A DNA stretch of 64,000 nucleotides from an uncultured Bacteroidia bacterium (GTDB lineage: Bacteria; Bacteroidota; Bacteroidia; Bacteroidales; ML635J-15), in the NCBI GenBank assembly GCA_902800045.1, contig CADCCZ010000001.1, positions 1,283,346 through 1,347,345 of the forward strand, in the 5' to 3' direction. Below, piece by piece: positions 12,490-64,000 of this stretch. Position numbers and translations under genes: made by a program. Numbering within the stretch: the first letter of the stretch is position 1; each line of letters begins with the position of its first letter. The notes beneath the pieces are model-generated. The model made no database searches. It worked only from the letters and a program-made list of their open reading frames with translations, and had not been told where the DNA came from.

Positions 12490-13851
12490 TTACTTCCCAA
12501 TACAGAACTTCGAGAAAATACTTCCAAGCACCTCATCGGTACTGATGGCTCCTGTGATTTCGCCAAGATGATAGTTGGCTTCGCGCAAATCCTGAGCGAT
12601 GAAATCGGACGGTACGCCCTCGCCTATCGAACGACGAGCCGACTGTAACAAGTCGCGAGCGGCCGTGAGCGATGCAACGTGACGCACATTGGTAATAACC
12701 ACATCGGCAGTTTCGGACTTTAGCGACGAAACATACTCGACAAACCTGCGGCACAAGGCATCGACATTCGAGCCATCGAGAGCAGAAATCGGCAAAGAAT
12801 CGCCATATCCATACTTGGCAGCGCAGATATCAGACTTGTTGAGTGCAATTATCAGTTTTGTGCCGTCGGAAATTTCATTTTCAATAGACGCAACAATCTC
12901 ATCGTTATGCTGCTTGTCTGCCGATGCATCGAGCACAAGCACCACAATCCGCGCAGATTTCAGCTTTGAGTATGTGCGCTGAATACCAAGTTCCTCCACT
13001 TCGTTGTCGGCATTGCGGATACCTGCCGTGTCGATAAAACGGAAGCGTATGCCGTCGAGGACAAACTCCTCCTCTATCGTGTCGCGCGTTGTACCTGCCA
13101 CCGACGAAACAATTGCCCTATCCTCGTGCAAAATGGCGTTCAGAAGCGTCGATTTTCCTGCATTCGGCTCTCCGACAATGGCAACTGGCACACCCGACTT
13201 CACTGCGTTTCCATATTCGAAACTGCGGATAAGCTTTTCGGTTTCGGCACAAATCTCGTCAATGAGAGAAACCAACTTGGTGCGGTCGGCAAATTCAACG
13301 TCCTCTTCCGAAAAGTCTAGTTCCAGTTCGAGAAGCGAAGTGAGTTCCAGCATTCTGCCACGCAGTTCCGAAATCTTCGACGACACCTGACCTTTCAGTT
13401 GCGACATTGCCACACGATGCGACTCCGCCGAACTGCTCGAAATGAGATCGGCAACCGCTTCCGACTGCGACAAGTCCATCTTGCCATTCAGGAAAGCCCT
13501 CTGCGTAAACTCTCCCGGAAGAGCAAGCACGGCACCATAATGCGTGAGCGCAGCTAGGATTTTCTGCTCAATGTATTCGGAACCGTGGCAATATATCTCA
13601 ACCATATCTTCGCCCGAAAACGAAGCCGGCGAAGCAAACTTGACAACCATCGCCTCATCGAGCAAAACACCTTTTTCGTCAACAATGCCAGTAAAGAGCA
13701 TTGTACGCGGATTTTCCGCGTCGAAAATGGATTTACGCACGACAATATTCCTCGCAATGGCGAATGAATTGGCCCCGCTAATTCTCACGATGCCGATGGC
13801 ACCGCTTCCCGATGCCGTTGATATAGCGCATATTGTTGTTCCGAATGTCAT
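12490..13851 (-). CDS. mnmE: tRNA modification GTPase MnmE
   Basis: MnmE works with MnmG to build the 5-carboxymethylaminomethyl group on the wobble uridine of certain tRNAs. The 453-residue protein has the formyl-THF-binding N-terminus (MTFGTTICAISTASGSGAIG), a GTPase domain in the middle (P-loop GEPNAGKST, DTAG, NKSD) and the C-terminal CIGK, whose cysteine is conserved. The start at 13851 is preferred over an ATG at 13881 because it matches the family and lies 18 bases past a TAACTTTG promoter box. The gene is convergent with the exporter and appears monocistronic. Confidence 0.97.
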   Translation of the reverse strand: MTFGTTICAISTASGSGAIGIVRISGANSFAIARNIVVRKSIFDAENPRTMLFTGIVDEKGVLLDEAMVVKFASPASFSGEDMVEIYCHGSEYIEQKILAALTHYGAVLALPGEFTQRAFLNGKMDLSQSEAVADLISSSSAESHRVAMSQLKGQVSSKISELRGRMLELTSLLELELDFSEEDVEFADRTKLVSLIDEICAETEKLIRSFEYGNAVKSGVPVAIVGEPNAGKSTLLNAILHEDRAIVSSVAGTTRDTIEEEFVLDGIRFRFIDTAGIRNADNEVEELGIQRTYSKLKSARIVVLVLDASADKQHNDEIVASIENEISDGTKLIIALNKSDICAAKYGYGDSLPISALDGSNVDALCRRFVEYVSSLKSETADVVITNVRHVASLTAARDLLQSARRSIGEGVPSDFIAQDLREANYHLGEITGAISTDEVLGSIFSKFCIGK

Positions 13852-13868
13852 TTCGACAAAATTTTTCG

Positions 13869-13876
13869 CAAAGTTA
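13869..13876 (-). promoter_or_regulatory. -7 box for mnmE
   Basis: TAACTTTG on the minus strand. It lies upstream of the ATG at 13851 but overlaps the longer alternative start, so it helps decide the start codon. Confidence 0.6.
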
Positions 13877-13894
13877 ATCATTTTGAAGCGAACA

Positions 13895-15775
13895 TCACTC
13901 CTGATGAAGCGAGTTATTTCTCATGCCGTTGTTGTAGCTTTGGACAAATGCCTTTATGAAATTTTGCTCATAATCAGTAATTTCAACATTTCCATCATTA
14001 GATTTTACAACTTCCATCCTATCGTTGTCGTACAACCTAATTTTTTTACCATCGAGCAAGAAACTGCAATAATCATCTTTCCTATATACAGCAAAGCGCG
14101 TCTGTAAAGTATCAAACACGTTGTTGCCGAAAGCATTATATTGTCCATCTATGCCTAAGCATGAAATTACACTCGGCATTATGTCTGTCTGCTGCATTAT
14201 CTTGTCGGCGACAAACGCCGTGTCCAACTTAGGATGATAGAAAACCATCGGCACATCATAAAGCCTCTCATAGTCAATATTCTGGCTACCAGTAAAATTT
14301 GTATGGTCGGCAGTAATCACAAACAAAGTCCTGTCATACCATTTGCTTTTCGATATCTTGTCGAAAAACTTCTGCAAGGCCATATCGGTATATGCCACAG
14401 TGTGTTGCATTGGAAAATCACCACGAGGCAGCATAGAATCGAAATCATCGGGAACGACGAACGGGTGATGCGACGAAAGGGTAAAAACAGTAGCAAGGAA
14501 TTTACTATCGAAATTACCAATCACATCTGCCACATATTGCAGATACTGATAATCGGGAATGCCCCATGTTCCATCGTAATCATCTTGGTTTGGATATTCA
14601 TCAAGTCCATAATACTCACCAACATCCAGAATCTTACACAAATCGGCAAACCCCATGGTACCGTTTGATGCACCATGAAAAAAAGCGGTTCGATATCCAT
14701 TTTCTGCCAGAAGTTTGGTAGGATAGTCAATCTTATTCGTTATGTACTTTGACTTTGAAAAAGGAGTATCGAACAACGATGGAACAGAACCCAACACCGA
14801 CGACAAGGCTACAATCGACAGCAATCCGTTGGCCTTGCCACGGAAAACAATACTATTTTGCGCAAGGCTATCGATAAAAGGCGTATAACCAGCATTCTTC
14901 TTAGGTGGCAACGCAAGGAAATCGGAATATTCGCTGGAAATTCCCTCAAGTATTATTATTACTACGTTGTCGATTGGCGGGAACTTCTGAAAATTATTTT
15001 CTGAACTTTTTTTCCTCGGCGAAAAATATGCGACCATATCATCGTCGGTTTCAAAATAATGTTTCTCCTCAAGTTCCTTCATCCCAATTGTCCTGATGAC
15101 TGAAAATGGTGTATTAAGAATCAAGTCGGTATTCTTTCCTCCTTCATACGCTGCTGCAGTATCGACGCCAATAGGTTTCAATTGCGTACCACCTCTTATT
15201 CCGACAACAGTCAATGCCAGCAAAATAACACGTATACCAACGTGAGCAATACCTGATTTAAGCGAACTGTAGAACTCCGGAGTCTGCTTTACAAAAGAAA
15301 ATTTTGCTACTACTACCAAAATTGCAACCAATGCAAGCAACACTAGCAACAAATACCAGTATTCTACGATAAATACCCCTATCAGATCGCCCATATTCGG
15401 AACTTCTGACATAAAATCAAACAAGAAAAACGTTGACCTGCCATGCGAAAATGGGAAATAACCGACATCAAGAAGGTTTAGTGCGAAGGCAAAAGTATTG
15501 CACACCACAAATAATATTGCGACGATGATTCCGTACCATTTTTTTGCCACTACTTTCGACGGCACAAGCATAAGCAGAATCACAGCTATGTTGGTGTACA
15601 ATATGGCAGTAATGTCGAACCTTATGCCGTATATGAACGACATAACAGTAGCGTCGGGGAAAAATGATGGATTGAAAGCATAGAACATAATCCGCAAAAC
15701 CGAATACAATATCAGCACCGCAAGGAGACGGAATAGCAAAGATGAAATCGGTCTATGAAAAATTTGTCTATTCAT
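13895..15775 (-). CDS. LtaS-like membrane sulfatase/phosphoglycerol transferase
   Basis: Five hydrophobic helices occupy about the first 200 of 626 residues. A large alkaline-phosphatase/sulfatase-fold domain follows (ILEGISSEYSDF with the metal site, then GTWGIPDYQ, LSSHHPF and ITADHTNF motifs). This is the architecture of LtaS/MdoB-type enzymes, which transfer phosphoglycerol or phosphoethanolamine to envelope glycans or lipids outside the membrane. Bacteroidota lack lipoteichoic acid, so decoration of a glycan or lipid A is more likely (inference). A TACCTTTG box at 15809-15816 supports a separate transcript. Confidence 0.88.
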   Translation of the reverse strand: MNRQIFHRPISSLLFRLLAVLILYSVLRIMFYAFNPSFFPDATVMSFIYGIRFDITAILYTNIAVILLMLVPSKVVAKKWYGIIVAILFVVCNTFAFALNLLDVGYFPFSHGRSTFFLFDFMSEVPNMGDLIGVFIVEYWYLLLVLLALVAILVVVAKFSFVKQTPEFYSSLKSGIAHVGIRVILLALTVVGIRGGTQLKPIGVDTAAAYEGGKNTDLILNTPFSVIRTIGMKELEEKHYFETDDDMVAYFSPRKKSSENNFQKFPPIDNVVIIILEGISSEYSDFLALPPKKNAGYTPFIDSLAQNSIVFRGKANGLLSIVALSSVLGSVPSLFDTPFSKSKYITNKIDYPTKLLAENGYRTAFFHGASNGTMGFADLCKILDVGEYYGLDEYPNQDDYDGTWGIPDYQYLQYVADVIGNFDSKFLATVFTLSSHHPFVVPDDFDSMLPRGDFPMQHTVAYTDMALQKFFDKISKSKWYDRTLFVITADHTNFTGSQNIDYERLYDVPMVFYHPKLDTAFVADKIMQQTDIMPSVISCLGIDGQYNAFGNNVFDTLQTRFAVYRKDDYCSFLLDGKKIRLYDNDRMEVVKSNDGNVEITDYEQNFIKAFVQSYNNGMRNNSLHQE

Positions 15776-48864: not shown

Positions 48865-49443
48865 TTAGTCGTCCATATACTGGTCACAAATACATTCGAG
48901 CAGAAGGTCGTGCCATTCGTCATCGCCCATAGTCTCTTTCATCGACTGCGGGATAAAACTGTGGTCGCTAACCTTTACATAGCCTTTCACGCCGTTAAGT
49001 GTAAAAATTGTAGCATACTCCGGATTATCAATCTCGATATTATCGTAGATAGGTTCGAGCAATTCTCCTGTTTCAATTTGCCAAAGTCCCCAGTATGCAC
49101 CACTTCTGAAATAAATGGTCTGACCTGTCTCACTATACGCATCAAGGTTGCACGGAGTGATTTCCTTGCCATTGTTTGCCATAATGCCAAACTGCTTGCT
49201 TCCGTCCTTCCGATACAATAAGCAAGTGCCAACAAATTCCTTTACAAGAGCAATATCGTCGTAAACGAACTCGGTAAGTTCTGTTTCCTTGCCATCGGAA
49301 GAGACCAAGCCCTTCTTACCATCACGGACACAAATGTTTGGAAAATTCCTCAAAAAATCTGCCGGCACATTAGGGCACTTAAAATCTTTTTTTCCGTACT
49401 TAGCTTCAAAAACCTCGTCAAAAGTCTGTTTAAATTCTTTCAT
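48865..49443 (-). CDS. WG-repeat protein
   Basis: The 192-residue product contains short WG/KG-type repeats (RDGKKGLVSSDGKETELTEF, DGSKQFGIMANNGKEITPC, SGAYWGLWQIETGELLEPI, NGVKGYVKVSDHSF). WG repeats form beta-rich surfaces; their role is mostly unknown. It is soluble and lacks a signal peptide. It is closely related to the product of 63390-64000, which stands on the other side of the restriction island. Its stop codon lies at the edge of leader copy 2. Confidence 0.85.
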   Translation of the reverse strand: MKEFKQTFDEVFEAKYGKKDFKCPNVPADFLRNFPNICVRDGKKGLVSSDGKETELTEFVYDDIALVKEFVGTCLLYRKDGSKQFGIMANNGKEITPCNLDAYSETGQTIYFRSGAYWGLWQIETGELLEPIYDNIEIDNPEYATIFTLNGVKGYVKVSDHSFIPQSMKETMGDDEWHDLLLECICDQYMDD

Positions 49444-51293: not shown

Positions 51294-54200
51294 TTATTCC
51301 ATAGTTATTGTTGGATCGGCAGCAGCAGAAACACTTCCATCCTCTGGTATATCATATAAGGATACAACTGGCGCATCTACTTTTTCGTTGCTAGAATTCT
51401 CGTGTTCCTTGAAATTCTCCACCTGCCCCATTACTTCTCTGAATACTTGTGGAGTGTATTGTGGCGGATAACCATTCTTTATAAGACATATTTTGATATC
51501 AAGTTTTAGTTGGTCTCTAACATTCGTATTGTTTAGCCAGTCTGCAAATGATGATTTTGCATCTATGATTTCACGAATCTTGCGAGCAAGGCTCATACAT
51601 TTTTTGTTAATCACAACGCCATCTACAGTCTCATCATCACCATATTCAAAGCCGTAACTATCTCTCAGATGTATTAGAATGTCATAAAATGCCTTCTCCT
51701 CAAAAGTAAGTCCTAATTTGCGGAAACTTTCACGGTCAGCTTGCATATCATTTAGAATATCAAGAGCCCTAGCTGTTGCTGTCTGAATAATGCTTTCTGC
51801 TGTATCTTCTTGTGCATCCCAAGCTTCTTGTTCCGACAGAAACTTTCGCCGTTCGTGATACGTTTTTATTGTATCTTCTAACATTTCCTGGAACTTTTTA
51901 GCAGCCAATTGATTTGTCCTGCCATATTGTGTAATACGCTTGCGAATAAGCTTGATAAGCATTTCAAGCTTTGTTGCCGGCATCTTTATTCCTTCAAGGC
52001 GTTCTATAAATTCAGGACCGAAAATATCCATTTCCTCACCATCCTCAAGAATACTTTCAACATTGTTGTATTTTAGAGCCGCTTCAACCATCCCAGCAAC
52101 AACCCTGTTCATCGTATCGGTGTCGGGGGCATCGGTTCCGCTCATCTTATATACCATTCCGGCAATTGCCATGAAACACTGTGCCAAAGCAGACTCATCA
52201 TCACCTAATTCGCCAGAAGGCTGACAGATGTCGTATGCTTTTCTCATCCTCTTCACCACTTGCAGGAAGTATGTCTTGAAAGAGACTTTATTAGTTTTTT
52301 TACCATCACTACTTACCGAATTTAAACTATCGGTTGATGAGAAAACATATTCTGCAGCTTTTGCCAGAAGCGTATATCTTGCTGCAGAGTCGGTTTCGGG
52401 ATTAAGGAATGGAGCAAGGTCGTAACCATCAAAAAGGTTCTTGAGTATTTCAAGATGCTCACGGAACAACTTTGTAGCTTGCTCAATATCGTCAGGATTT
52501 GGTGCAACCGAGCCTTCGCCTCCATATAATTTCATAGCCTCTAACATTTGGTCGCGAATACCTATGTAGTCGATTATCAAGCCGAATTCCTTTCCCGGAT
52601 ATTTACGGTTCACACGACTGATAGTTTGAATCAAAGAGTGCTTTTGCAACGGTTTGTCGTTGTACATATATGTAAGGCATTCTACATCAAAACCAGTAAT
52701 CCACATGTCAACCACAATCACAATCCTCAAGTTGGACTTTACATTCTTGAATGCAGCATCCAAATCGTCAGACCTACTGTCGTTTTTTACGCCTCCAAGA
52801 TAATTGTACATATTAGGTTCATCGTTGCTGCCCACACTTGCTACCATAGCTATCGTAGGCATCTTCTTAAGTCCGTTGAGCTCCTCGGGCGTAGCTATAA
52901 TTCCATCGGGAGTCTTTTTTTCTTCAAACCATTCTGGATATTTATCCTTGAACTTCATAAGCAAATCGTATGCAATCTTTCTATTGGAGCATACTACCAT
53001 TGCCTTCTGAACCCTATCTGGCTCGTTGGCTGTTGCTGCTACATAGTGATCGTGAATATCTATCGCCAGTTTTTGAAGTCTATCTGGTTCTCCAAGAATC
53101 ATTTCAAGAGAACTCATAGCCTTCTTGCTCTTGACAATATCTTCTTGTTCCGAGCCTTCATCGGCGCATTTTGCATAGTAGTCTTCAATTTCGGTTGCCT
53201 TTTTCATGTCGAGAAGCACTTTGGCAATACGCGGATGGTACTTGATTGGTACGGTAATACCATCGGCAACCGACTGATCCATGGTGTACCTGTCTATTTC
53301 GTCGCCGAAGGTCTGATAGGTTTCTGCAATCGGTGTGCCTGTGAAGCCTACAAATGTAGCATTAGGCAGAGCCTCTCGAAGAACTTTGGCGTATGGCTTC
53401 GAAACCATTGCTTTCATATTTTCGTCGGCATCCTCGCTGAACTTTATACGCCGCGAGCCTTCTATCTGGGTGCGGTGAGCCTCGTCGCTGAAACAAATTA
53501 TATTTGACCGTTTGTTGATAAGACCTACTGGGTCGTCTTTCCTGTCGCAGAATTTCTGAATGGTACAGATATAAAAGCCACCACTTTCACGAAGTTTTAA
53601 TTCGTCGCGGAGTTCTTTTCGGGTAGCAACAACCTTTACTTCGCCAATGCCAAGGAACTCGGTACTTTTGGTAAACAATTTTGCGCCCTGTTTCTGTAGA
53701 TCATCACGGTCAACAATCATAAGAATAGTCGGCGAGCCTATTTCCTCGGAACACCTCATCGACAACTGACGGGCCAGGAATGCCATAGTATAGGTTTTTC
53801 CGCAACCTGTAGCGCCAAAATATGTACCGCCCTTACCACTCTGTTCTTTTACCGACTTTATAATGCTAGCCCTTAGCAGGCGTGCAGCAAAGAACTGCGG
53901 ATAACGGCAAACTATTTCAACTTCATCACTATCGAAATTCCTATCTCGGAAATATATGTAGTCCCTGAAAATTTCCAAGAATCTTTCAGGACTATATACG
54001 CCCTTTACCATTGTCTGCAACTCGTCGAAAGGAGAAGTTGACACCCTGTCGCCATCGTTTACACGCCTCCATGCATAGAAATGCTCGTAGGGTGTTCGGA
54101 CTGTTCCCAATCGTGTCTTAACGCCATCGCTTATACAAGCCAGCGGACAATAATGCAACAACCCGGGGATATCCCTCCAGTAGCGGATATTTATTTGCTC

Positions 54201-54710
54201 CCACGCATCATATATAGTTGCATTGGCATCGGCAGGATTTTTCAGTTCGATTACACAAACAGGCATACCGTTTACATAGAGCAAAACATCCGGACGCCTA
54301 TTCTTTGTCTCGCCATTGTTCACATATTCTACAGTAAACTGGTTTACTACCCTAAATATATTATTGTCTGCATTTTCAAAGTCGATAAGCGGAACTTGAT
54401 TCTGCCCATACTGAACACCATTTACCATCCATCCGTAAACCAAATGGAGCGTAGAGAAGTCTGATACGCTTCCGACAAGCCTAACCTTATCTGCCACTTC
54501 CTGTATTTCATCGGGTTTCAAATTAGGATTGGTATCCGACAGAAACTTGATAAGGTCGTCCATATATAGGACTTCCTTGTTGCTTGTTCTTGGGATTGAA
54601 TCTCCATACAAGTACTGCCATCCTTCTTTTACAAGAATCGAAATCAATGCATCTTCGAAGTCGCTTTCTACGAAGCGTCCGTTTATATTCTGAAAGCGGT
54701 TTTTTGCCAT
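51294..54710 (-). CDS. hsdR: Type I restriction endonuclease, R subunit
   Basis: HsdR is the nuclease and DNA translocase of type I restriction. The protein has 1138 residues from the ATG at 54710 (MAKNRFQNINGRFVE; a longer frame to 54818 would overlap hsdS). N-terminal nuclease-type residues lie around VCVIELKNPAD. A helicase domain follows: Walker A GATGCGKTYTMAF, DEAH box FSDEAHRTQ, and the later motif GFTGTPI. The last 180 residues are a helical C-terminal part that docks on HsdM. It is the last gene of the operon, 8 bases after hsdS. Directly after its TAA stop the same frame stays open for 17 codons (51240-51293). Confidence 0.97.
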   Translation of the reverse strand: MAKNRFQNINGRFVESDFEDALISILVKEGWQYLYGDSIPRTSNKEVLYMDDLIKFLSDTNPNLKPDEIQEVADKVRLVGSVSDFSTLHLVYGWMVNGVQYGQNQVPLIDFENADNNIFRVVNQFTVEYVNNGETKNRRPDVLLYVNGMPVCVIELKNPADANATIYDAWEQINIRYWRDIPGLLHYCPLACISDGVKTRLGTVRTPYEHFYAWRRVNDGDRVSTSPFDELQTMVKGVYSPERFLEIFRDYIYFRDRNFDSDEVEIVCRYPQFFAARLLRASIIKSVKEQSGKGGTYFGATGCGKTYTMAFLARQLSMRCSEEIGSPTILMIVDRDDLQKQGAKLFTKSTEFLGIGEVKVVATRKELRDELKLRESGGFYICTIQKFCDRKDDPVGLINKRSNIICFSDEAHRTQIEGSRRIKFSEDADENMKAMVSKPYAKVLREALPNATFVGFTGTPIAETYQTFGDEIDRYTMDQSVADGITVPIKYHPRIAKVLLDMKKATEIEDYYAKCADEGSEQEDIVKSKKAMSSLEMILGEPDRLQKLAIDIHDHYVAATANEPDRVQKAMVVCSNRKIAYDLLMKFKDKYPEWFEEKKTPDGIIATPEELNGLKKMPTIAMVASVGSNDEPNMYNYLGGVKNDSRSDDLDAAFKNVKSNLRIVIVVDMWITGFDVECLTYMYNDKPLQKHSLIQTISRVNRKYPGKEFGLIIDYIGIRDQMLEAMKLYGGEGSVAPNPDDIEQATKLFREHLEILKNLFDGYDLAPFLNPETDSAARYTLLAKAAEYVFSSTDSLNSVSSDGKKTNKVSFKTYFLQVVKRMRKAYDICQPSGELGDDESALAQCFMAIAGMVYKMSGTDAPDTDTMNRVVAGMVEAALKYNNVESILEDGEEMDIFGPEFIERLEGIKMPATKLEMLIKLIRKRITQYGRTNQLAAKKFQEMLEDTIKTYHERRKFLSEQEAWDAQEDTAESIIQTATARALDILNDMQADRESFRKLGLTFEEKAFYDILIHLRDSYGFEYGDDETVDGVVINKKCMSLARKIREIIDAKSSFADWLNNTNVRDQLKLDIKICLIKNGYPPQYTPQVFREVMGQVENFKEHENSSNEKVDAPVVSLYDIPEDGSVSAAADPTITME

Positions 54711-54718
54711 ATTACTTA

Positions 54719-55837
54719 TTATTTTTCGGTTTGTAACGACCCCCTTATCAACACAGGACATATATTTTTGAGCTGTTCTTTGAGCGCTTCTGCTATGCGT
54801 TGGCGCTCGATATAACACTTATGGATGTTGACTATCTCACGTTGAACAGAAATGTCTGGGATTGGGATTTCCACATCATTCATATCATCCATCGTGAACA
54901 CCTCTCTTGCACTGCCCCATGAATTAAATCGCACATATCTATCAAATTCGGGTCTTATAAAGAACATAAAAAGATATTCTGGCAGAAGCCTTGTTTCATC
55001 TTTCGAATGAAAGACACCATAAATTGAAGATACAATATGCGCACCTTCATCACATAGTGCAATTGCAAATTTATCACCCATCCTAGCTGTATTAACATTA
55101 AAGACAAACTCCCCTTTTCTAACAACTTTATAATTTCCCAAAGGAACGCCTGACATGTCAGCCTTTGTTTCTATGAAATCTTTTTGAATACTTACTCCAA
55201 CAACGTCATTAAGTCCAAATATTAGATTGCCATTTCTCTCATCAATTTCTTCTATATATTCTTCAATTCTTTTTGAAGACATTTTTCTCTTCAAATCCTC
55301 TATATACCCATCACAAACAAGTTTCAATTCTTCCACTTTGCTTTGATAGGCAGAAAGATTGCTTTGGAGAGCCAAATAAACATCAACGTATTTACGCTGA
55401 ATGTCAATCGATGGGAGGGTGATGTCTATGTCACAGAAATCTTCCCATGGTAAACCTTGTCTAATGGATGAGTCTGTATGAAAAGCAAAAAGGCGATCTT
55501 TTTCGGATGATTTCAGAAGAATAAAAAAATATTCCTTCAGTACCAATTTTTCGTCTTTCAACTTAAAAATCGTATAAGCGGGACTTACATATTTGTCTTT
55601 ATCACTATGGTTTATAGCAACGGGCAACGCATAGTCTCTGCCAACGTGCATCAAATTGCATGCAAAATAGTTGGGAGGAACTATTTTGTAATTGCTTGTA
55701 TCTTCGCCAACTTGCTTTGCAGGTTCAAAAAACTCCTTGTCGATATTTATTCCAGAGACTTGCTCAGGAATAAGATCTGAGATGCCACAGCGTTGACTAT
55801 ATGGCTCTACAAATTCGCCAATTTTATACTTCTTCAT
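54719..55837 (-). CDS. hsdS: Type I restriction system specificity subunit
   Basis: HsdS recognises the bipartite DNA target for both methylation and cutting. From the ATG at 55837 (MKKYKIGEF; an ATG at 55843 is possible) it has 372 residues with two target-recognition domains and two conserved helices (QRKYVDVYLALQSNLSAYQS and QREIVNIHKCYIERQRIAEA). The two TRDs are of different sequence, so the target would be asymmetric. Its start overlaps the upstream YhcG-type gene by 14 bases; hsdR follows after 8 bases. No inverted silent hsdS copy was seen, so no evidence of phase switching here. Confidence 0.93.
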   Translation of the reverse strand: MKKYKIGEFVEPYSQRCGISDLIPEQVSGINIDKEFFEPAKQVGEDTSNYKIVPPNYFACNLMHVGRDYALPVAINHSDKDKYVSPAYTIFKLKDEKLVLKEYFFILLKSSEKDRLFAFHTDSSIRQGLPWEDFCDIDITLPSIDIQRKYVDVYLALQSNLSAYQSKVEELKLVCDGYIEDLKRKMSSKRIEEYIEEIDERNGNLIFGLNDVVGVSIQKDFIETKADMSGVPLGNYKVVRKGEFVFNVNTARMGDKFAIALCDEGAHIVSSIYGVFHSKDETRLLPEYLFMFFIRPEFDRYVRFNSWGSAREVFTMDDMNDVEIPIPDISVQREIVNIHKCYIERQRIAEALKEQLKNICPVLIRGSLQTEK

Positions 55838-56996
55838 CGTCATGCTTTTCAATATTTTCCAATTCAGCAATAGTGCGCTCGACAACTTCTTGCAACTGGT
55901 AAGAAGCAACGCCCAATGGCTTTTGAATATCTTGTAACGACCATTCTACAATGGTTTTGTCCGTAGATTTGCATATAAGCAAGCCTACGGAAGGATTATC
56001 TCCCTCGCCACGCAACAACTTATCTGCTGCCGTAACATAGAAATTGAGCTTTCCTGCAAACTCAGGGATAAACTTAACAGCCTTCAGTTCTACAACAACA
56101 TATCTGTGTTGAGGTATATGATAGAATACCAAATCGGGGAAAAACGTCTGTCCTCCAGGCATCTGCAATTCCATTTGCCGTCCCACATAAGAGAATCCAC
56201 GTCCCAATTCAAGGAGAAACCTTGTGATATTATTGGCTAAAGCATTCTCCAAGTCTTTTTCTTTCTTTACCTCCTCAACTGTAATGAAACTCAAATCGTA
56301 TTCTTTCTTCAACAATTCCTTAGCCGACTCGCTTTGAGATATCGGTAAGGTCGTATCGAAATTGGTAATAGCTGAGCCTTGCGTTTCATAGAGGTGAGTA
56401 TCCATTTGATGCTCCAAAAAAGCACGACTCCAACCCTCTGATATGACTTTGCCTACATAGAAAAGTGCCTCGTCAACAGATTGGGCTTTAGAAATTATAA
56501 TGACATGATGAAACCAAGGTACTTGACCAAAAACACCAGGCATCTCTAATTGGTCAGCAGGCTGCTGACTTTTTTCCTCTTTTCCCAAATGGTCAGCAAC
56601 TTGCTGACTAATTTGGTCAACGGGTCGTTGACTTTTTGCATCATGTTCATTATAAAACAGATACCAACGCTTCATATATTTTACATTGGTAAAAGAAAAA
56701 CCTGACATATCAGGAAAAGCCTGCTGCATATCAAGAGCAAACTGTTTCACCACACCTGCGCCCCAACGTTCTTCTGCTCGTAAAGCCACCAAATCCCTGC
56801 CAATGCTCCAATAGAACTCAAGCATTGTTGTATTTACACGAATAGATGCTTTTATCTGGCTCTGACAGAAACGTTTTTTTACATCCGACAACCATTCTAC
56901 ATACTCTTTGTCGGCTGTCATACCATCACGATGTACAAACGATGGCTTTTCTACGTTTTTGCCCTCTTTCATATACTTTCCCTTATTCGATTCCAT
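55824..56996 (-). CDS. YhcG/DUF1016-family PDDEXK nuclease inside the type I operon
   Basis: The 390-residue product starts with the DUF1016 N-terminal helical domain (IRVNTTMLEFYWSIGRDLVA) and ends with a PDDEXK nuclease domain (FFPDLVFYH, then VVVELKAVKF and EFAGKLNFYV). These proteins often sit within type I restriction operons; the role is not settled. Between the two domains lies a linker of near-repeats (SQRPVDQISQQVADHLG, then SQQPADQLEMP). The start overlaps the hsdM stop by 14 bases. It lies between hsdM and hsdS, so it is cotranscribed with the core genes. Confidence 0.9.
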   Translation of the reverse strand: MESNKGKYMKEGKNVEKPSFVHRDGMTADKEYVEWLSDVKKRFCQSQIKASIRVNTTMLEFYWSIGRDLVALRAEERWGAGVVKQFALDMQQAFPDMSGFSFTNVKYMKRWYLFYNEHDAKSQRPVDQISQQVADHLGKEEKSQQPADQLEMPGVFGQVPWFHHVIIISKAQSVDEALFYVGKVISEGWSRAFLEHQMDTHLYETQGSAITNFDTTLPISQSESAKELLKKEYDLSFITVEEVKKEKDLENALANNITRFLLELGRGFSYVGRQMELQMPGGQTFFPDLVFYHIPQHRYVVVELKAVKFIPEFAGKLNFYVTAADKLLRGEGDNPSVGLLICKSTDKTIVEWSLQDIQKPLGVASYQLQEVVERTIAELENIEKHDDEEV

Positions 56997-58596
56997 AGCC
57001 AATACCCTTAAACGCCTCTTCAAGCATCTTTTGTGATTCCTTTTCGCGCTGCATCAGTTCTTTCATTTCCTGCTGGATATGAACCATTTCCTTGGGATAG
57101 TCTATCTCCAAATCGTGGTCGATGAACTCTATATACTTGCTTGGCACCAGTGTCCAATTGTTCTGTTCAATTTCGTCAATGCCGACACTTCTATATAGCT
57201 CTGGCTCTGCATAGTTCTTGCCGTCGGTTCCTGCCGACTGCCACTTGTGGTAAATCTCAGCGACACGTTGAATCTGCTCCGAAACAAGTCTGACCTTCTT
57301 TTTGTTTTCGCCTTTAACCGGATTCTCAGTCCAACTGCGCAGGTCCATGAACAGTATTTCGTGCTCCCTATTGCGCAAATCACGACCATGATACTTGCCA
57401 CCTTTCTTGTTCTGGTTCAGAATCCAGAAAGTTACGCTAATGTCGGTATGTATAAACAATTCCCTCGGGAGAATAATGATAGCCTCCACCTTGTCTTTCC
57501 GTATCAGGTTCTTTCTGATTTCTATGGTATCAGAGTCTCCTAGTGCACCGTTAGCCAACAAAAAACCAGCCACGCCAGATAGCGGTTTCAGATGGGATAG
57601 CATGTGCAGAATCCAAGCGTAGTTGGCATTACTTTCGGGCGGTATTCCGTAATCTGTCCAACGGGCATCTGTGCGAAGATTTTCGTCCCACCAAGGCTTG
57701 AGATTAAACGGAGGATTAGCCATTATGTAATCGAAATAAAGCCCCTTGTGCAAATCATTCGTAAATGTAGAATCGCTCTCGTTTCCTAGGTTATGGCTTA
57801 TGCCACGCAAGGCTAGGTTCATCTTGGCAAGGCGGTAAGTCGCGGCCTCTTTCTCTTGTCCATATACATTAATGCGGCTAATGTCGCCTTTCTTTGATTT
57901 CACCAGCTCTGTACTCTGGATAAACATACCGCCCGAACCGCAGCAAGGGTCGTAGAGTGTGCCATCGAAAGGCTCGATAACCGTAGAAATGAGTTGCACC
58001 ACATCGTGGGGCGTATAAAATTCACCTTCTTCCTTTGATACTGCTGCTACTGCAAACTGGTTCAAAAAGTATTCGTACACATACCCAATAAGGTCTTTCT
58101 CCTCGCCAAAGGTCTTGTGGCTAATCTTGTTCACCTCGTCAACAATCTTCTTTATATCGTTTGCAGCAAGGTTTCTTTGTGTAAATGTACCCTCCACGAA
58201 GCATCCTTTCAGCCGATCATTGGTTTCTGCAATGCTTTTTAGAGCCTGGTCAAGGGCTACATTTAGTTTTGGAGCCGCAGTATTAATTATGGTTGACCAT
58301 CTAGACTCTTTAGGAAGACCGAAAGTTCCATCTGCAAAAGTGGTATCATCGAAGAACGCCTTCTGAATTTCCTCATCGTCAGGATTCAGTCCCTCGTCAA
58401 TGAGTCTCTTGCGCAAACTGGCAACACCATCTTCATATTTCTCTCCGATAAAACGCAAAAACACGAGAGTCAGCATTAAATCTCTTTTTTCGAAGAATGA
58501 TCCTGAGTTCTTAGCACCTCTTAATATATCCCTGCACTTGAACAAAATACTGTCAAGATTAAGAGTTTCTTCTTTTTTTGTTGTTTTTTTTGCCAT
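56983..58596 (-). CDS. hsdM: Type I restriction system DNA methyltransferase
   Basis: HsdM transfers methyl groups from S-adenosylmethionine to adenine in the target. The 537-residue protein has the N-terminal HsdM helical domain, motif I LYDPCCGSGGMF and the catalytic motif IV DYIMANPPFNLKPW, both intact, which contrasts sharply with the gene at 59735. It is the first gene of hsdM, yhcG, hsdS, hsdR, with a TAAATTTG box at 58631-58638. Confidence 0.97.
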   Translation of the reverse strand: MAKKTTKKEETLNLDSILFKCRDILRGAKNSGSFFEKRDLMLTLVFLRFIGEKYEDGVASLRKRLIDEGLNPDDEEIQKAFFDDTTFADGTFGLPKESRWSTIINTAAPKLNVALDQALKSIAETNDRLKGCFVEGTFTQRNLAANDIKKIVDEVNKISHKTFGEEKDLIGYVYEYFLNQFAVAAVSKEEGEFYTPHDVVQLISTVIEPFDGTLYDPCCGSGGMFIQSTELVKSKKGDISRINVYGQEKEAATYRLAKMNLALRGISHNLGNESDSTFTNDLHKGLYFDYIMANPPFNLKPWWDENLRTDARWTDYGIPPESNANYAWILHMLSHLKPLSGVAGFLLANGALGDSDTIEIRKNLIRKDKVEAIIILPRELFIHTDISVTFWILNQNKKGGKYHGRDLRNREHEILFMDLRSWTENPVKGENKKKVRLVSEQIQRVAEIYHKWQSAGTDGKNYAEPELYRSVGIDEIEQNNWTLVPSKYIEFIDHDLEIDYPKEMVHIQQEMKELMQREKESQKMLEEAFKGIGYGIE

Positions 58597-58719: not shown

Positions 58720-59760
58720 TTATCTTGAAATAGGATTTGATTCATATAGTGGAGGGTTTAAATCTTGATTTTGTAGTTTCTCAATAATTTCATTATACCA
58801 CCTAAGTATATCCATAACAAGATACAAACAAGCTCTAAACAAAAATGGAGACTTAGCATTAATAGTGTACTCAGAAACATTGAGATTCAATCCAACTGAT
58901 TTATGCGAACCGTCTTGTAAAATATCAACCAATTTTTCAACAGAATAACCTAACGGAATAGGCATTATATCATCTTTCGGTTTATATTGTATTCCATTTA
59001 AGGTTACCCCCTTCCATTTTCTAACTAACTCTGAAGTTCTACTATCCCGGTATGATATATATGTATAGAAATTTTTAAAATTATTTAAAGTTTTAATCGT
59101 TTGAGGAATTATATAATTACTCCTACATTCTTCCATAATTCTTTCCAAAAATCCTCTTAGTTGATTAAAAAGATCTATACTTCGGTTAAAATTTTTATCC
59201 CTTGCTTCATCCAATAGTAATTGGTGCAAATTCTCTCCACATTGTACATTAATTTTGGACGCTATATCTATAAGATACTGGTACTTTTTCTTAACCATGA
59301 ACTCCACAGAATGAATATGATCAACATCCTCGATAATCTTTTCCACCAAATCACGAACATTACCCTTCTGTATGTATCTGTCTAGTTTTATAAAATAGTC
59401 AAGTTCACCATTCTTACATTTATTATCCAAAAATCCTTTTTTAGCAGTGTATAGGAAAAACGGTATATCTCTTTTTGAATTATACAATTCAATAAATGAG
59501 ATTGTATGAATTAGACCACTTATATCATCACTCTCGACATATTCTACATCTCCCTTAGGGAAGTTGCCATCTACTATAACTGCATCTATTTTATCTTTGT
59601 AGCATTCAATAGCATCTTTCAAGGCTTCTGACGTAGGCACATATTTAAGTACTTCGATATTTTTTTCATCGAAAAGTTTACGAATAGTTCCGTCCTTTTC
59701 CAAGGTGGCACATTCATCGTCAGCCCATATTACATTATAAACATTCGCACTCATAATCAT
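58720..59760 (-). CDS. Protein with N-terminal response-regulator receiver domain and unknown C-terminal domain
   Basis: Residues ~8-130 of this 346-residue protein carry all landmarks of a phosphorylatable receiver domain: the acidic pair D14/D15 after a hydrophobic strand (NVIWADDE), phosphoacceptor D64 (AVIVDGNFP), switch T105 (FFLYTAKKG) and K125 (YFIKLD). The C-terminal ~200 residues are helical, with no DNA-binding motif that I recognise, so it is not an ordinary transcription factor. The start (59760 or 59754) overlaps the end of the preceding methylase-kinase gene by about 25 bases, so the two are translationally coupled and this protein is the natural phosphorylation partner. The output is unknown. 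Confidence 0.82.
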   Translation of the reverse strand: MIMSANVYNVIWADDECATLEKDGTIRKLFDEKNIEVLKYVPTSEALKDAIECYKDKIDAVIVDGNFPKGDVEYVESDDISGLIHTISFIELYNSKRDIPFFLYTAKKGFLDNKCKNGELDYFIKLDRYIQKGNVRDLVEKIIEDVDHIHSVEFMVKKKYQYLIDIASKINVQCGENLHQLLLDEARDKNFNRSIDLFNQLRGFLERIMEECRSNYIIPQTIKTLNNFKNFYTYISYRDSRTSELVRKWKGVTLNGIQYKPKDDIMPIPLGYSVEKLVDILQDGSHKSVGLNLNVSEYTINAKSPFLFRACLYLVMDILRWYNEIIEKLQNQDLNPPLYESNPISR

Positions 59761-62116
59761 TAAATTTAGTATTGTTAGATGTAAGATATACAGGAATAAG
59801 AATATTAAATGTCAACCATTCGCTATCGCTTTCAATTGAGACCAGCCCATCAAACTTATGCGCAATTTTGTATATATGGTCGCCACCTATTCCGTCTTGT
59901 GACGAATTTATACCAACAATGCCTCTTGCAACAAAGTCTTTGATAGTAAAATTATCAGGCAAAGGATTACCATTATTAGAAATACCTATGCGAATATATT
60001 TTCCACCTTTATAATTTACGCCTTCCAATTCTACCAACAATTTGTTTTCTGGCTTTTCTCTTTTGTTAAACCCATGCTGATGAGCATTAATGAATATGCA
60101 ATCCATCATAGTGTAAAAAAGATTTATGTCCATCTCAACTTTTGTTTCAGCAAGGTCTTCTGTATTTTTGATTGGAAGAATGTCAAAAGATTTGTAACCA
60201 AAGTTACCCCACGCTTTTATATACTTACTTATCGTATCATATAGATTCACCTTCCCCTTTTCAGCATGTACAAATTCAAAATCTGTACCGGCACTGTTAA
60301 TTTGTCGCAAAGCGAATTGAACATTGTCATTTAATGCCACAACCATATCATCTACACGGTCATTCTTGAGGATTTCAATACCTGCACTAATTTTTGTGAA
60401 AGTAACACCCAAATTATGAATTAGATCCGAAGATTTACCACTAAGAATTTGCAAGTTGTCCAGTTTTTTCTTTAATACGTTGTGTTCTTGCCAGTATATT
60501 CTCTGGACAATTTGCTTTTGACTTTCAAGACTTTCATACATCGGAATCATAAAGTTCATCCAATCTATCCTAGGAAGCGCACCTGTTTCTGGCTCTTTGA
60601 ATCGTTTAGAATTAATCACACAATTTACAAGGTATTCCGGCAGACACCTATTCTCTTGAATAGTGAAACAATCGAATAGTGGTGGTACGAAAAGAGGTTC
60701 TTCGTCCGTTTTGATATAGAACTTACCTGCAGACACATTAAAAATGATTGCTTTGGAACATAATTTCACATATTTGGACTTGGGCAGTTCCATTTTTTCA
60801 ATGTTAATGTCGCGAGTATGCATTTCGGCAATACGACTATACATGTGCTCCGGCTTCAAGACACGCCCAAATGTTTCCTCATAGCTTCTTATTCCTTTCT
60901 CTTTGGTAGCAATGGACAAGAATTTAACTATCCGCTGTCCGGGAAGCACCTCTATTATTTCCTGAACATAAGCAGACGGATCCAACGAATAATTTTGCTC
61001 GAAAGTTGATTCAAACGGAATTATAGCCGATTGCTTTTTATCATCATTATTTATTCTATTAATTACATCTTGATAGTCTAAAACCTTTTGATGCCCTTTG
61101 TTCAAAATACAGTCGTTCGCCAATACGAACTTAATATTCTTAGATGTACGTTCTTTGTCGAGAACAATAATAGCTGTATTTACACCAGAATACGAAAGAA
61201 TTCCACTGGGCAGCTTTACAACGCTATCAACCCAATTATTTTCGCACAAGGTTTTTCTTATTTCTAAATTTTCCCCTGGCCTTATGCAAGTTCCCGTACT
61301 AACCATCAGCACAGCCTTCTTTAGCGATGGCGTGTTAATAAATTTATACAAGATATAATCCTCCAGTAAACTCGGTCGATTAGAATCTGTTGGCATATCA
61401 TTCAAATGTATTCCGAAAGGCAGTTCGGAAGCAAGCATATCACTACCATCATTACTTCTCCAATCTAAAGTAGAATCTCCATTGAAAACTGCCGCATTTT
61501 TTCTCATTGAGGCATCAAGTCTAACTTTAGCAATGACATTTGTTATCCGATTAATTTCCTGACCTACAAAATGGACATCTTTAAGTTCAGGTTGCAATGC
61601 ATAAGTGCATAAACCAGCACAAGGATCATATATTTTTGAAGGATTGTGAGTTTTAATCAAATTCGCAATTAATAATGCTACCTCATTAGGAGTTATACCC
61701 ATACCTGCATATTTCCCTCCTCTAGTAGAATAGAAGGAAATGATGTGTTCTATTATCTCAGAATAGTATTCTTTTATATAGTCATTACAATAATCATAAA
61801 AAATATGAACCGCCTCTGCTGACTGACCCTCAAAGTACTGTTCGTTAACTGATGTGCGAATTTCTTTTAGGAGATCAGACTCAAAACCATCTAAAGCTTC
61901 TATTGATTGAATATGCCTCTTGCCCCTAAAAATATTTCCATTCTCTCCTACAATAGAAACAAGGTGCCCTTCATGATGAGCAACTATTACATACAATAGT
62001 GGTATTACAGAACATATATCATAATTATCTAACGCGTTAAGGCATTTATTAAGTCTATTAAATAAATTTTCTCTAACATTCTCTCTTACTTCCATATTAA
62101 TTCTTTTTAGGTTCAT
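59735..62116 (-). CDS. Degenerate N6-adenine methylase fused to HsdS-like segment and histidine-kinase-type ATPase
   Basis: Residues ~100-330 of 793 follow HsdM: TPNEVALLIANL, YDPCAGLC at motif I (164-170), later KLPSGILSYSGVNTAIIVL. Motif IV reads SELPFG (230-235) where NPPF is expected, and motif I lacks its second and third glycines, so methyl transfer is doubtful. Residues ~440-560 resemble HsdS with a coiled-coil end. H567 (SDLIHNLG) is placed like a dimerisation/phosphotransfer histidine. Residues ~650-775 are a HATPase: N box FINAHQHG (N677), G1 SNNGNPLP, G2 GIGGDHIYKIAHKFDG. It starts 3 bases after the WYL gene stop and overlaps the receiver gene. Probably a DNA-sensing kinase (inference). 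Confidence 0.85.
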   Translation of the reverse strand: MNLKRINMEVRENVRENLFNRLNKCLNALDNYDICSVIPLLYVIVAHHEGHLVSIVGENGNIFRGKRHIQSIEALDGFESDLLKEIRTSVNEQYFEGQSAEAVHIFYDYCNDYIKEYYSEIIEHIISFYSTRGGKYAGMGITPNEVALLIANLIKTHNPSKIYDPCAGLCTYALQPELKDVHFVGQEINRITNVIAKVRLDASMRKNAAVFNGDSTLDWRSNDGSDMLASELPFGIHLNDMPTDSNRPSLLEDYILYKFINTPSLKKAVLMVSTGTCIRPGENLEIRKTLCENNWVDSVVKLPSGILSYSGVNTAIIVLDKERTSKNIKFVLANDCILNKGHQKVLDYQDVINRINNDDKKQSAIIPFESTFEQNYSLDPSAYVQEIIEVLPGQRIVKFLSIATKEKGIRSYEETFGRVLKPEHMYSRIAEMHTRDINIEKMELPKSKYVKLCSKAIIFNVSAGKFYIKTDEEPLFVPPLFDCFTIQENRCLPEYLVNCVINSKRFKEPETGALPRIDWMNFMIPMYESLESQKQIVQRIYWQEHNVLKKKLDNLQILSGKSSDLIHNLGVTFTKISAGIEILKNDRVDDMVVALNDNVQFALRQINSAGTDFEFVHAEKGKVNLYDTISKYIKAWGNFGYKSFDILPIKNTEDLAETKVEMDINLFYTMMDCIFINAHQHGFNKREKPENKLLVELEGVNYKGGKYIRIGISNNGNPLPDNFTIKDFVARGIVGINSSQDGIGGDHIYKIAHKFDGLVSIESDSEWLTFNILIPVYLTSNNTKFNDYECECL

Positions 62117-62119
62117 AAA

Positions 62120-63175
62120 TCATTTTTCGCTGCAAAGGTATGTACTATCTGTGCAGTCTTTCTGCATAGGAAAATATTTTTTTATTATTTTTTCAAAAAT
62201 ATTTTTCATTCTATCCCTAAACCATTCTGGATTAACAACTTCCACATCCGAACCAAATGATAAAATTTGTTGTTCCAGTTCCCGTGTAGGTTTCAATTTT
62301 AGTGCAATAAGGCATTTTTCTTCATTTAAGACAGTTTGTGACTTATGGATAGGCTTTGATGTTACGTATGGAAACCTTTCCCTTGTAAATTTAAGTATAA
62401 TAGATTCCTTTTCTACATCGTCGTTTGGAATGGAAACTCCAACAATGTCATCAAAAAAATGAGCAAAATCTATTTCTGTATTTGGTCGAAACAGAACGTC
62501 CGCATGTGAAATATGTTGAATTCTGTCAAGAGCCTTATTTGCAATCTTTCCAGACTCCTCCTCATAACCAAATAGAAACCAACGATTATTGTATTGCTTT
62601 ATGTGATACGGATGTAAGGTTGAATCCAAGACCCTGCCTTTATACGTTTCATATCTAATTATTATAGGAGTACGATTTACAACTGCATCTATCAGTTTCG
62701 AAAGATATTCCAATCCTTTCAATTGTTCATTCTGCTCAAATGAAATTACATTATCGCTACTCATCCTTACACCAAAGCGACATTCAAGCTTCGAGATTAC
62801 CTCTTCGAGCCACGCATTGCCAGGAATTCCACGATAACGATTTAGCATCTCTATCGTAGAATGCAATTTCTGAACTTCATTGGGTGTCAGCTGATTTTTG
62901 TAAATAGAATAACCTTTTTCTGTGTATTGGTAGTAGCATTTTTTGCCGTCAAGAGGAATTGCATCAAGATAAACATCATTAGGTAGCATTTTACGGATGG
63001 CGTTTATGTCATCACGTAATTGCCGCACTTTAATCATTGAACTTTCGCCCTGATTTTCTGCCAGAAAATCATTCACTTTCTCTAACAATTCATCAATATC
63101 ATATCTATGATGAAAATCACTGAAACATCTATCTAGGATTTGATATCTGAATTGAGCGTTTTTATTTACTGGCAT
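62120..63175 (-). CDS. WYL-domain transcriptional regulator
   Basis: The 351-residue protein has an N-terminal helix-turn-helix-like region (DIDELLEKVNDFLAENQGES), a WYL domain in the middle (IIIRYETYKGRVLD, NNRWFLFGYEEESGK) and the C-terminal WCX-type extension. WYL proteins such as BrxR and CapW repress BREX and CBASS defence operons, so this is likely the regulator of the operon it heads. A perfect 16-bp palindrome overlaps its start codon, which fits self-repression. The next gene follows after 3 bases. Confidence 0.92.
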   Translation of the reverse strand: MPVNKNAQFRYQILDRCFSDFHHRYDIDELLEKVNDFLAENQGESSMIKVRQLRDDINAIRKMLPNDVYLDAIPLDGKKCYYQYTEKGYSIYKNQLTPNEVQKLHSTIEMLNRYRGIPGNAWLEEVISKLECRFGVRMSSDNVISFEQNEQLKGLEYLSKLIDAVVNRTPIIIRYETYKGRVLDSTLHPYHIKQYNNRWFLFGYEEESGKIANKALDRIQHISHADVLFRPNTEIDFAHFFDDIVGVSIPNDDVEKESIILKFTRERFPYVTSKPIHKSQTVLNEEKCLIALKLKPTRELEQQILSFGSDVEVVNPEWFRDRMKNIFEKIIKKYFPMQKDCTDSTYLCSEK

Positions 63176-63189
63176 ATATCTAGATATAT
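63174..63189. promoter_or_regulatory. Perfect 16-bp palindrome at the WYL start codon (candidate operator)
   Basis: ATATATCTAGATATAT, self-complementary over all 16 bases, lies between the -7 box (63199-63206) and the ATG, covering the predicted +3 to +18 region. A dimeric WYL protein bound here would block transcription and initiation of the whole operon. Confidence 0.6.
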
Positions 63190-63198
63190 TTTAGGATA

Positions 63199-63206
63199 CA
63201 AATATA
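63199..63206 (-). promoter_or_regulatory. -7 box for the WYL operon
   Basis: TATATTTG on the minus strand, 24 bases before the start codon; the leader is only about 17 bases. Confidence 0.65.
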
Positions 63207-63389: not shown

Positions 63390-64000
63390 TCATTCATATT
63401 GTGCACGTAGGCTTTCGTCCACTACATAATCCCACTCGTCTTCGCTCATGGTTTCGGACAAACTTAGCGGATAAAATTTGCCATCAGTGACCCTCACATA
63501 GCCCTTCTCCCCATTCAGCGTAAAGATTAAAGAAGACTCGGGGTCTACAAATTCAATGTCGTCGTAGATTGGCTCTACCAGCATACCTATACCTGCCTGC
63601 AACAGTCCGTGACGGTCGCCACTATCGATGAAGATATTTTGAATCTCTGCAAAATACGAATCCAACTTGCACGGCATGACTTCCTTACCATCGATGGTCA
63701 TAATGCCAAACTGCTTGCTTCCGTCCTTTTTGTAAAATAACCAGCCGTTCGGCGAGGTCATACCTATGTAGTCGTAAACAAAAGCCGTAAGCTCCGTACC
63801 CTTGCCATCGGGCACAACCAACCCCATCTTGCCGTCGTGAATAGCCACATACGGATAATCCTTAGGAACCCTGCGCCCGTATGTATAAGCAATCTCATCA
63901 TAGTTTGCCGGTACGATAATGCTACCTTCAAAATTCTTAACTCCCTTTTTGCCGTTTTCAGCAACAAATACTTCGGTAAAATTCTTTTTAATTTCTGACA
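63390..64000 (-). CDS. WG-repeat protein, start just outside the window
   Basis: The frame stays open to the right edge, and the last two bases in the window (TG, minus strand) would complete an ATG with one more base outside, giving a start MSEIKKNFTEVFVAENGKKG. The product then has about 203 residues. WG-type units are visible: HDGKMGLVVPDGKGTELTAF, KDGSKQFGIMTIDGKEVMPC, NGEKGYVRVTDGKFYPL. The same units in the same order occur in the gene at 48865-49443, so these are paralogues that now flank the restriction island. Confidence 0.85.
   Translation of the reverse strand, partial: SEIKKNFTEVFVAENGKKGVKNFEGSIIVPANYDEIAYTYGRRVPKDYPYVAIHDGKMGLVVPDGKGTELTAFVYDYIGMTSPNGWLFYKKDGSKQFGIMTIDGKEVMPCKLDSYFAEIQNIFIDSGDRHGLLQAGIGMLVEPIYDDIEFVDPESSLIFTLNGEKGYVRVTDGKFYPLSLSETMSEDEWDYVVDESLRAQYE

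Follow-up and report, generated by a model that had tools for sequence, protein, structure and literature searches.

Two-component logic has been used in phage defence, as in Detocs, and the WYL repressors CapW and BrxR stand beside defence genes. Closer to the locus described here are several kinases with partner genes in restriction or immune operons; the papers that bear on them are cited, here and below, from part of their text. Bellieny-Rabelo et al. (2021; PMC8011034) reported two-component-like pairs linked to restriction-modification (R-M) genes, in which a HEF_HK kinase (PF19191) accompanies a Response_reg_2 protein (PF19192). CapK/CapS, a GHKL kinase and its substrate, sits upstream of diverse immune operons and controls them (PMC13373217), and the NxD-type McrBC operons of the CoCoNuT paper hold methyltransferases together with two-component genes (PMC11090510). 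CapW/BrxR are named in PMC12255303 and PMC13373217. Here we describe a cassette of three genes on the minus strand (58720–63175) of a 64,000-nucleotide stretch of contig CADCCZ010000001.1 from an uncultured Bacteroidia bacterium, hereafter the window, encoding a WYL regulator, a sensor that joins a catalytically broken methylase and a half-HsdS-like part to a histidine kinase, and a receiver protein. That sensor and receiver form a two-component pair is well supported, and our best guess is that the pair guards type I restriction.

The cassette shares with the HEF_HK/Response_reg_2 pairs adjacent genes for a soluble kinase-like and a receiver-like protein as well as linkage to R-M genes, here of type I in 13 of 24 loci. 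The kinase parts show a distant resemblance (hhalign probability 64.6, E 6e-5, with a two-sequence alignment), and the N-x-G form of the G1 box found in our sensors also occurs in two kinases that we examined beside Response_reg_2 genes. The two groups differ in input and company: the usual HEF_HK input is HATPase_c_3 (paraMORC-like), mostly in type II company with C5 methylases and Vsr (PMC8011034), whereas ours is a pseudo-methylase plus half-HsdS with type I genes. PF19191 did not match the window kinase and reached E 0.18 in P0107. Membership of our receiver in Response_reg_2 was rejected: there was no PF19192 match up to E 10, none in the window's own genome, and an hhalign probability of 0.1 against a two-sequence alignment. 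Like CapK/CapS, the cassette places a kinase and partner ahead of diverse immune operons, but CapK is activated by single-stranded DNA and phosphorylates a serine of a STAS–winged-helix repressor (PMC13373217), whereas ours is a pair of the His-Asp type; no STAS domain was matched in the WYL, sensor or receiver protein. The NxD-type operons likewise have two-component genes within a methylase/restriction operon, but they are type IV McrBC systems, and a dead-methylase kinase fusion is not described in the part of that paper covered (PMC11090510). As with CapW/BrxR, a WYL regulator lies beside defence genes, the difference being that here it lies beside a kinase–receiver pair. No Detocs-named family appeared among the defence-family matches of the three proteins, in a library that may not hold Detocs. 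The intact methylase of Vibrio vulnificus solved with the DNA mimic Ocr (PDB 7eew), which we take to be an M plus half-S fusion, superimposes on the sensor with a root mean square deviation of 24.5, so the parts are placed differently; the sensor moreover lacks the catalytic motifs and has a kinase added. The open-access literature searched (most subscription papers and bioRxiv preprints lay outside its scope) held no recognisable description of a type I pseudo-methylase kinase, nor was one found in the covered parts of PMC12839542, PMC12255303, PMC7159879 and PMC7641849. The initial annotation of this DNA had proposed a new system; the same set was indeed not found described, but the term is too strong given the R-M-linked two-component-like pairs published in 2021 (PMC8011034).

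The first cassette gene (62120–63175, minus strand, as are all genes given here by window coordinates) encodes a 351-residue regulator with WYL and WCX domains (Pfam 42.7 and 44.3 bits), which we take to be the defining domains of CapW/BrxR-type repressors. The sensor (793 residues; 59735–62116) and the response regulator (346 residues; 58720–59760) follow. The three genes first noticed are real, and the 3-base gap followed by an overlap is correct for the open reading frames (ORFs) as called; with the starts of the database versions, 786 and 344 residues long for sensor and receiver, the WYL–sensor gap is 24 bases and the sensor–receiver overlap 20.

In its AlphaFold model the sensor is predicted to begin with an HsdM-like fold (residues 10–387; 60956–62089), followed by a half-HsdS part resembling a target recognition domain (TRD; residues 388–529; 60530–60955) and a single continuous helix (residues 530–586 by DSSP of the model; 60359–60529) that runs through H567 into a histidine-kinase core. 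The helix block through H567 has a predicted local distance difference test score of 72–89. The predicted catalytic and ATP-binding (CA) domain of the core covers residues 621–778 (59783–60256) and includes N677, N714-N715-G716, G742 and G744, so that the dimerization and histidine phosphotransfer (DHp) histidine and the N, G1 and G2 boxes of the CA domain by which we recognise a two-component kinase are all present. The methylase part keeps the predicted HsdM fold without intact catalytic motifs: motif I reads DPCAGLC and motif IV SELPFG, against DPCCGSGG and NPPF in the window's own HsdM.

The same pattern recurs among 31 sensors (22 plus nine more; L006 and P0043, and L007 and P0092, look near-identical), aligned without checking by hand and with uncertain motif columns in L082 and L088. 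Motif I G-x-G and motif IV [DN]PP[FYW] are never both intact in one sensor (0 of 31), although the NPP of motif IV is retained in L010, L052, L059 and L083 and the G-x-G of motif I in L054, L084 and L089. Because the motif losses differ across the 31 sensors, the methylase has been broken in several ways while the kinase was retained: every sensor has a His in the aligned H-box segment, an N box of the form N[AS]xxH and a G1 box of the form N-x-G. Some sensors depart from the window's layout. Those at L008:7724-12115 and L009:7841-12232 are 1463 residues long with a long extra N-terminal part, which in L008 has no Pfam domain before residue 911, and in the sensor at L053:4762-6963, between Trk transport and CinA genes, a below-cut-off HNH match replaces the methylase.

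The partner protein is predicted to have a receiver fold, seen in its AlphaFold model (the VIA-align comparison covers mainly residues 5–154). The receiver domain occupies residues 1–150 (59311–59760) and carries D14, D15, D64, T105 and K132; the output domain, residues 152–346 (58720–59307), is mostly helical and includes R202, E206, S285-H286 and W321. In 29 receivers D15, D64, K132 and R202 are invariant, H286 and W321 are kept in 28, position 14 is D in 28 and E in one, and position 105 is T in 20 and S in nine. The acidic pair, the phospho-accepting Asp, the Thr/Ser and the Lys of a receiver are therefore in place. The initial annotation had also listed D14/D15, D64 and T105, but its K125 is a variable position and the conserved Lys is K132. 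Phosphotransfer from H567 to D64 is plausible. A search with the L010 receiver gave nine matches and no Pfam domain. The receivers of L050, L051, L008, L009 and L054 have an extra C-terminal stretch, very roughly 80 residues judged by eye, that the window protein is without.

Gene neighbourhoods tie the two proteins together. Our locus table has 27 entries, of which 24 could be assessed (L051 and L052 stop at contig ends, and L105 is a broken copy); L080 duplicates L010, with identical HsdM/HsdS, and the two are counted once. Since the loci were gathered in several ways, the fractions that follow do not describe a random sample. In all 24 loci the sensor gene lies next to the receiver gene, which counters the possibility, raised at the outset, that homologues mostly lack the receiver partner. 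Type I R-M genes follow on the same strand in 13 (the window, L006, L007, L009, L010, L011, L016, L059, L081, L083, L084, L085 and L086), with three genes between receiver and HsdM in L007 and one in L009. The receiver–HsdM gap is 123 bases in the window, and the two genes overlap or lie at most 11 bases apart in L010, L059, L081, L083, L084 and L085. L087 and L089 have R-M genes nearby in another arrangement, and in L082 the pair is next to AAA_15, PLD-like and UvrD genes with no type I R-M genes seen. Of the 24 loci, 17 have a WYL relative close to the pair. In the receiver-anchored sample of the phylum taken alone (of 395 genomes 49 matched, and those used were the 11 with E at most 1.9e-30, 10 of them beyond the own genome), every one of the 10 genomes has a kinase gene immediately before the receiver gene, and in 6 of the 10 HsdM comes immediately after it. 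The co-occurrence and defence setting anticipated in the initial annotation, which had proposed a defence-linked two-component pair with a dead methylase input, are thus borne out, as are the predicted kinase and receiver folds.

Several classes of the phylum to which the window belongs have the pair, which also occurs on a mobilizable plasmid and, in a single case, among type III CRISPR genes. The Myroides plasmid pFM-G13, typed as mobilizable, carries WYL, sensor, receiver, HsdM, HsdS, two further genes and HsdR in that order. Among the best 15 of 1169 plasmid records, at least three match the sensor over 80% or more of its length, all from Myroides and of 43,223 bases, and the other 12 are partial matches to genes annotated HsdM. 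No receiver match occurred in 50,697 phage records, and of the viral contigs 11 stretches fit a pattern, none coding a relative. Protein matches at E at most 0.001 numbered 123 for the sensor and 165 for the receiver, own copies included, the weakest sensor matches among those listed being HsdM-like. In the window's order the sensor search matched 152 of 393 genomes, mostly at ordinary HsdM coordinates; 11 beyond the own genome were followed, and sensors were confirmed in at least 10 of the 393, one of them broken. Receiver profile A2, which misses distant members, matched three of the 393 genomes of the order and one of the 31 of the family, each count including the own genome. From one set of 11 loci seven were used, L012–L015 matching in the ATPase part only with no receiver-profile match beside it, and the weakly matching L103, L106 and L108 have no sensor–receiver pair (L106 has a 252-residue receiver-like ORF and L108 an HsdM). 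Some E-values in the locus table come from profiles built partly on the tested sequences.

We read these data as describing a cytoplasmic two-component pair, with a pseudo-methylase/half-HsdS input on a kinase core, that guards type I restriction, and we would expect this reading as a whole to prove right about as often as wrong. In the mechanism that we envisage, the sensor dimer would shift when its methylase-like cleft takes up DNA or an antirestriction protein that mimics DNA, or when it loses S-adenosylmethionine (SAM). The conserved helices of HsdS pack antiparallel and DHp helices pack parallel; a single shared helix could therefore scarcely satisfy both arrangements together, and this conflict may serve as the switch between the off and on states. 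Phosphorylation of H567 would follow, with transfer of the phosphate to D64, and the phosphorylated receiver would release its output domain, which would target the restriction complex or the WYL protein or would itself be a HEPN-like effector. The WYL regulator would hold the cassette repressed until it is needed.

Several observations weigh against this reading. The sensor model has a predicted template modelling score of 0.60, so the placement of its domains is uncertain, and the HATPase match of the window sensor falls under the Pfam cut-off. The G1 box of usual kinases has Asp as its first residue, for which all 31 sensors have Asn; the ATP site would thus be unusual yet constant. No methylase Pfam match was obtained in the sensors of L016, L053, L054 and L088, although that of L054 can be aligned to the sensor profile, starting at position 106. 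In L088 (605-11241) the pair is embedded in a type III CRISPR locus, between Cas10/Csm5 and Csx1-like CARF-HEPN genes, with no type I R-M genes seen; its kinase input shows neither a methylase match nor any Pfam family at E 0.01, and the kinase itself was called from a sub-threshold HATPase_c match (E 0.0026) and motifs. Restriction genes were not seen in seven of the 24 loci (L008, L050, L053, L054, L055, L104 and L107), where for L104 and L107 the comparison of neighbouring genes was confined to R-M, WYL, sensor and receiver profiles and the flanks of L053 and L054 are short; the pair is therefore not solely a partner of local restriction. The TRD region is the least conserved part of the sensor (42% and 41% identity to the window in L006 and L007, against 53% and 45% for the M part and 64% and 59% for the kinase) and falls to 17–25% in seven more distant loci. 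Finally, for the output domain neither Pfam (above cut-off) nor the PDB sequences (below E 0.04) gave a match, and the L104 receiver is short (234 residues).

An alternative that we consider possible, though on the unlikely side, is that the pair and the WYL regulator together set the expression of the downstream R-M genes, so that methylation precedes restriction, with the phosphorylated receiver acting on WYL or on transcription. The placement of the cassette ahead of varied R-M operons fits this: HsdS in nine other loci is 19–32% identical to that of the window over the aligned parts, and the inserted genes vary (DUF1016; GIY-YIG (PDC-S14) with GmrSD; PDC-M33A/B/C). So does the frequency of WYL relatives, and a published kinase–repressor cassette does lie upstream of diverse immune operons, as CapK/CapS (PMC13373217). 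However, Pfam gives the receiver no DNA-binding domain, WYL is not near in 7 of 24 loci, and six of the seven loci without restriction genes retain it, where there would be little beyond the cassette to regulate. A small ORF of about 70 residues, XRE-type helix-turn-helix by eye, lies upstream of the cassette in L006 (at 9663) and L007 (at 8688) and speaks for transcriptional control; in L006 it occupies the place expected for WYL. An operator common to the WYL and HsdM upstream gaps was sought and rejected, its best score being matched by 12.8% of 500 Markov-resampled sequences. An imperfect palindrome spanning the WYL start (63161–63202, arms 76% complementary) is a weak candidate operator. 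An RmuC-family gene lies between WYL and sensor in L016 (3339-4892), and another downstream of the L008 receiver (13546-14847).

A decidedly less probable alternative is a stand-alone abortive-infection system, in which phosphorylation would free the output domain as a HEPN-like nuclease or toxin and the R-M neighbours would be no more than defence-island company. The absence of visible restriction genes from seven loci is consistent with this, as is the conservation of R202, H286 and W321 in the output domain. Compared with five DUF4145 sequences by hhalign, that domain scores 19.8 (P 8.5e-4), the best of six comparisons, the other five having P 0.017 or worse, and the motifs LRxxLE and GSH align with R.ALE and GN.aH; DUF4145 is a HEPN family fused in places to restriction enzymes (PMC3710099). 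On the other hand, the hhalign probability is just 9.6 with so small a DUF4145 set, the match is absent from the Pfam scan of the receiver, and the arginine of the HEPN Rx4-6H motif is absent from the window receiver, where residues 279–281, the three possible positions before H286, are D, I and L. R-M genes, moreover, follow in 13 of 24 loci. The HEPN-like nature of the output domain is thus weakly indicated, as a lead.

The initial annotation had suggested that the sensor recognises unmethylated foreign DNA, that is, that its M/half-S part binds a particular site and reports the methylation state. Both the M fold and a TRD-like part are retained in the prediction, and in a 20-row sensor alignment D164, P165 and G168 are invariant and E187 nearly so, residues that presumably have a role in the SAM site. 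Yet motif IV departs from NPP[FYW] in 29 of 31 sensors, and compared with L006 and L007 the TRD of the window's sensor keeps 42% and 41% identity where HsdS keeps 24% and 27%. The own HsdS is the best match of the sensor TRD in only two of 10 loci, the window and L083; in the window it scores 49, with the next at 45 and a shuffle maximum of 40. On balance these comparisons suggest that the sensor does not follow the local recognition site, and we regard site-specific sensing as improbable; some room for it is left because the window is itself one of the two loci in which the own HsdS matches best. That the sensor is a non-functional remnant, methylase and kinase pieces joined by chance and decaying, is scarcely credible, since against the broken catalytic motifs and one broken copy (L105) stand the persistence of kinase and receiver residues throughout the phylum sample, open frames of 671–1463 residues in the aligned locus sensors, and a pair that stays together in all 24 loci.

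For a two-component guard of restriction, a constant ligand is more likely than a local site: DNA in general, SAM, or a protein fitting type I clefts. Ocr, which PARIS senses, binds type I methylases, as does ArdA (PMC12707154). One specific form of the guard reading, which we put forward as doubtful, makes the sensor a decoy methylase: the dead M/half-HsdS dimer would mimic the target of Ocr, ArdA and SAM depletion, an antirestriction factor would fill or empty its cleft and so start the His-Asp relay, and the HEPN-like domain of the receiver would respond. If so, the pair would detect attacks on restriction as a two-component sensor of the guard type, a kind not found in the literature searched, and would add a guard layer comparable to PARIS but working through His-Asp signalling. 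Restriction should not be shut down without notice, nor should a type I operon that has just arrived start to act prematurely; how such operons are monitored and regulated when they travel on mobile DNA is an open question. With a pseudo-methylase as its base, the kinase would offer a direct and testable link from restriction machinery to phosphorelay signalling.

Downstream of the cassette in the window and on the same strand lies a complete type I R-M gene set (51294–58596), which the initial annotation had not mentioned. It comprises HsdM (537 residues, motifs I and IV both intact; 56983–58596), a DUF1016/YhcG nuclease of the PDDEXK type (PADLOC PDC-S02; 55824–57023), HsdS (396 residues; 54719–55909) and HsdR (1174 residues; 51294–54818). 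The nuclease gene stands between HsdM and HsdS, as does another in L009. Two ORFs (48865-49443 and 63390-63998) flank the R-M island and have common stretches of 90 nucleotides (80%) and 71 nucleotides (73%); the island may therefore lie between paralogous genes. The second of these ORFs (63390-63998) contains WG repeats.

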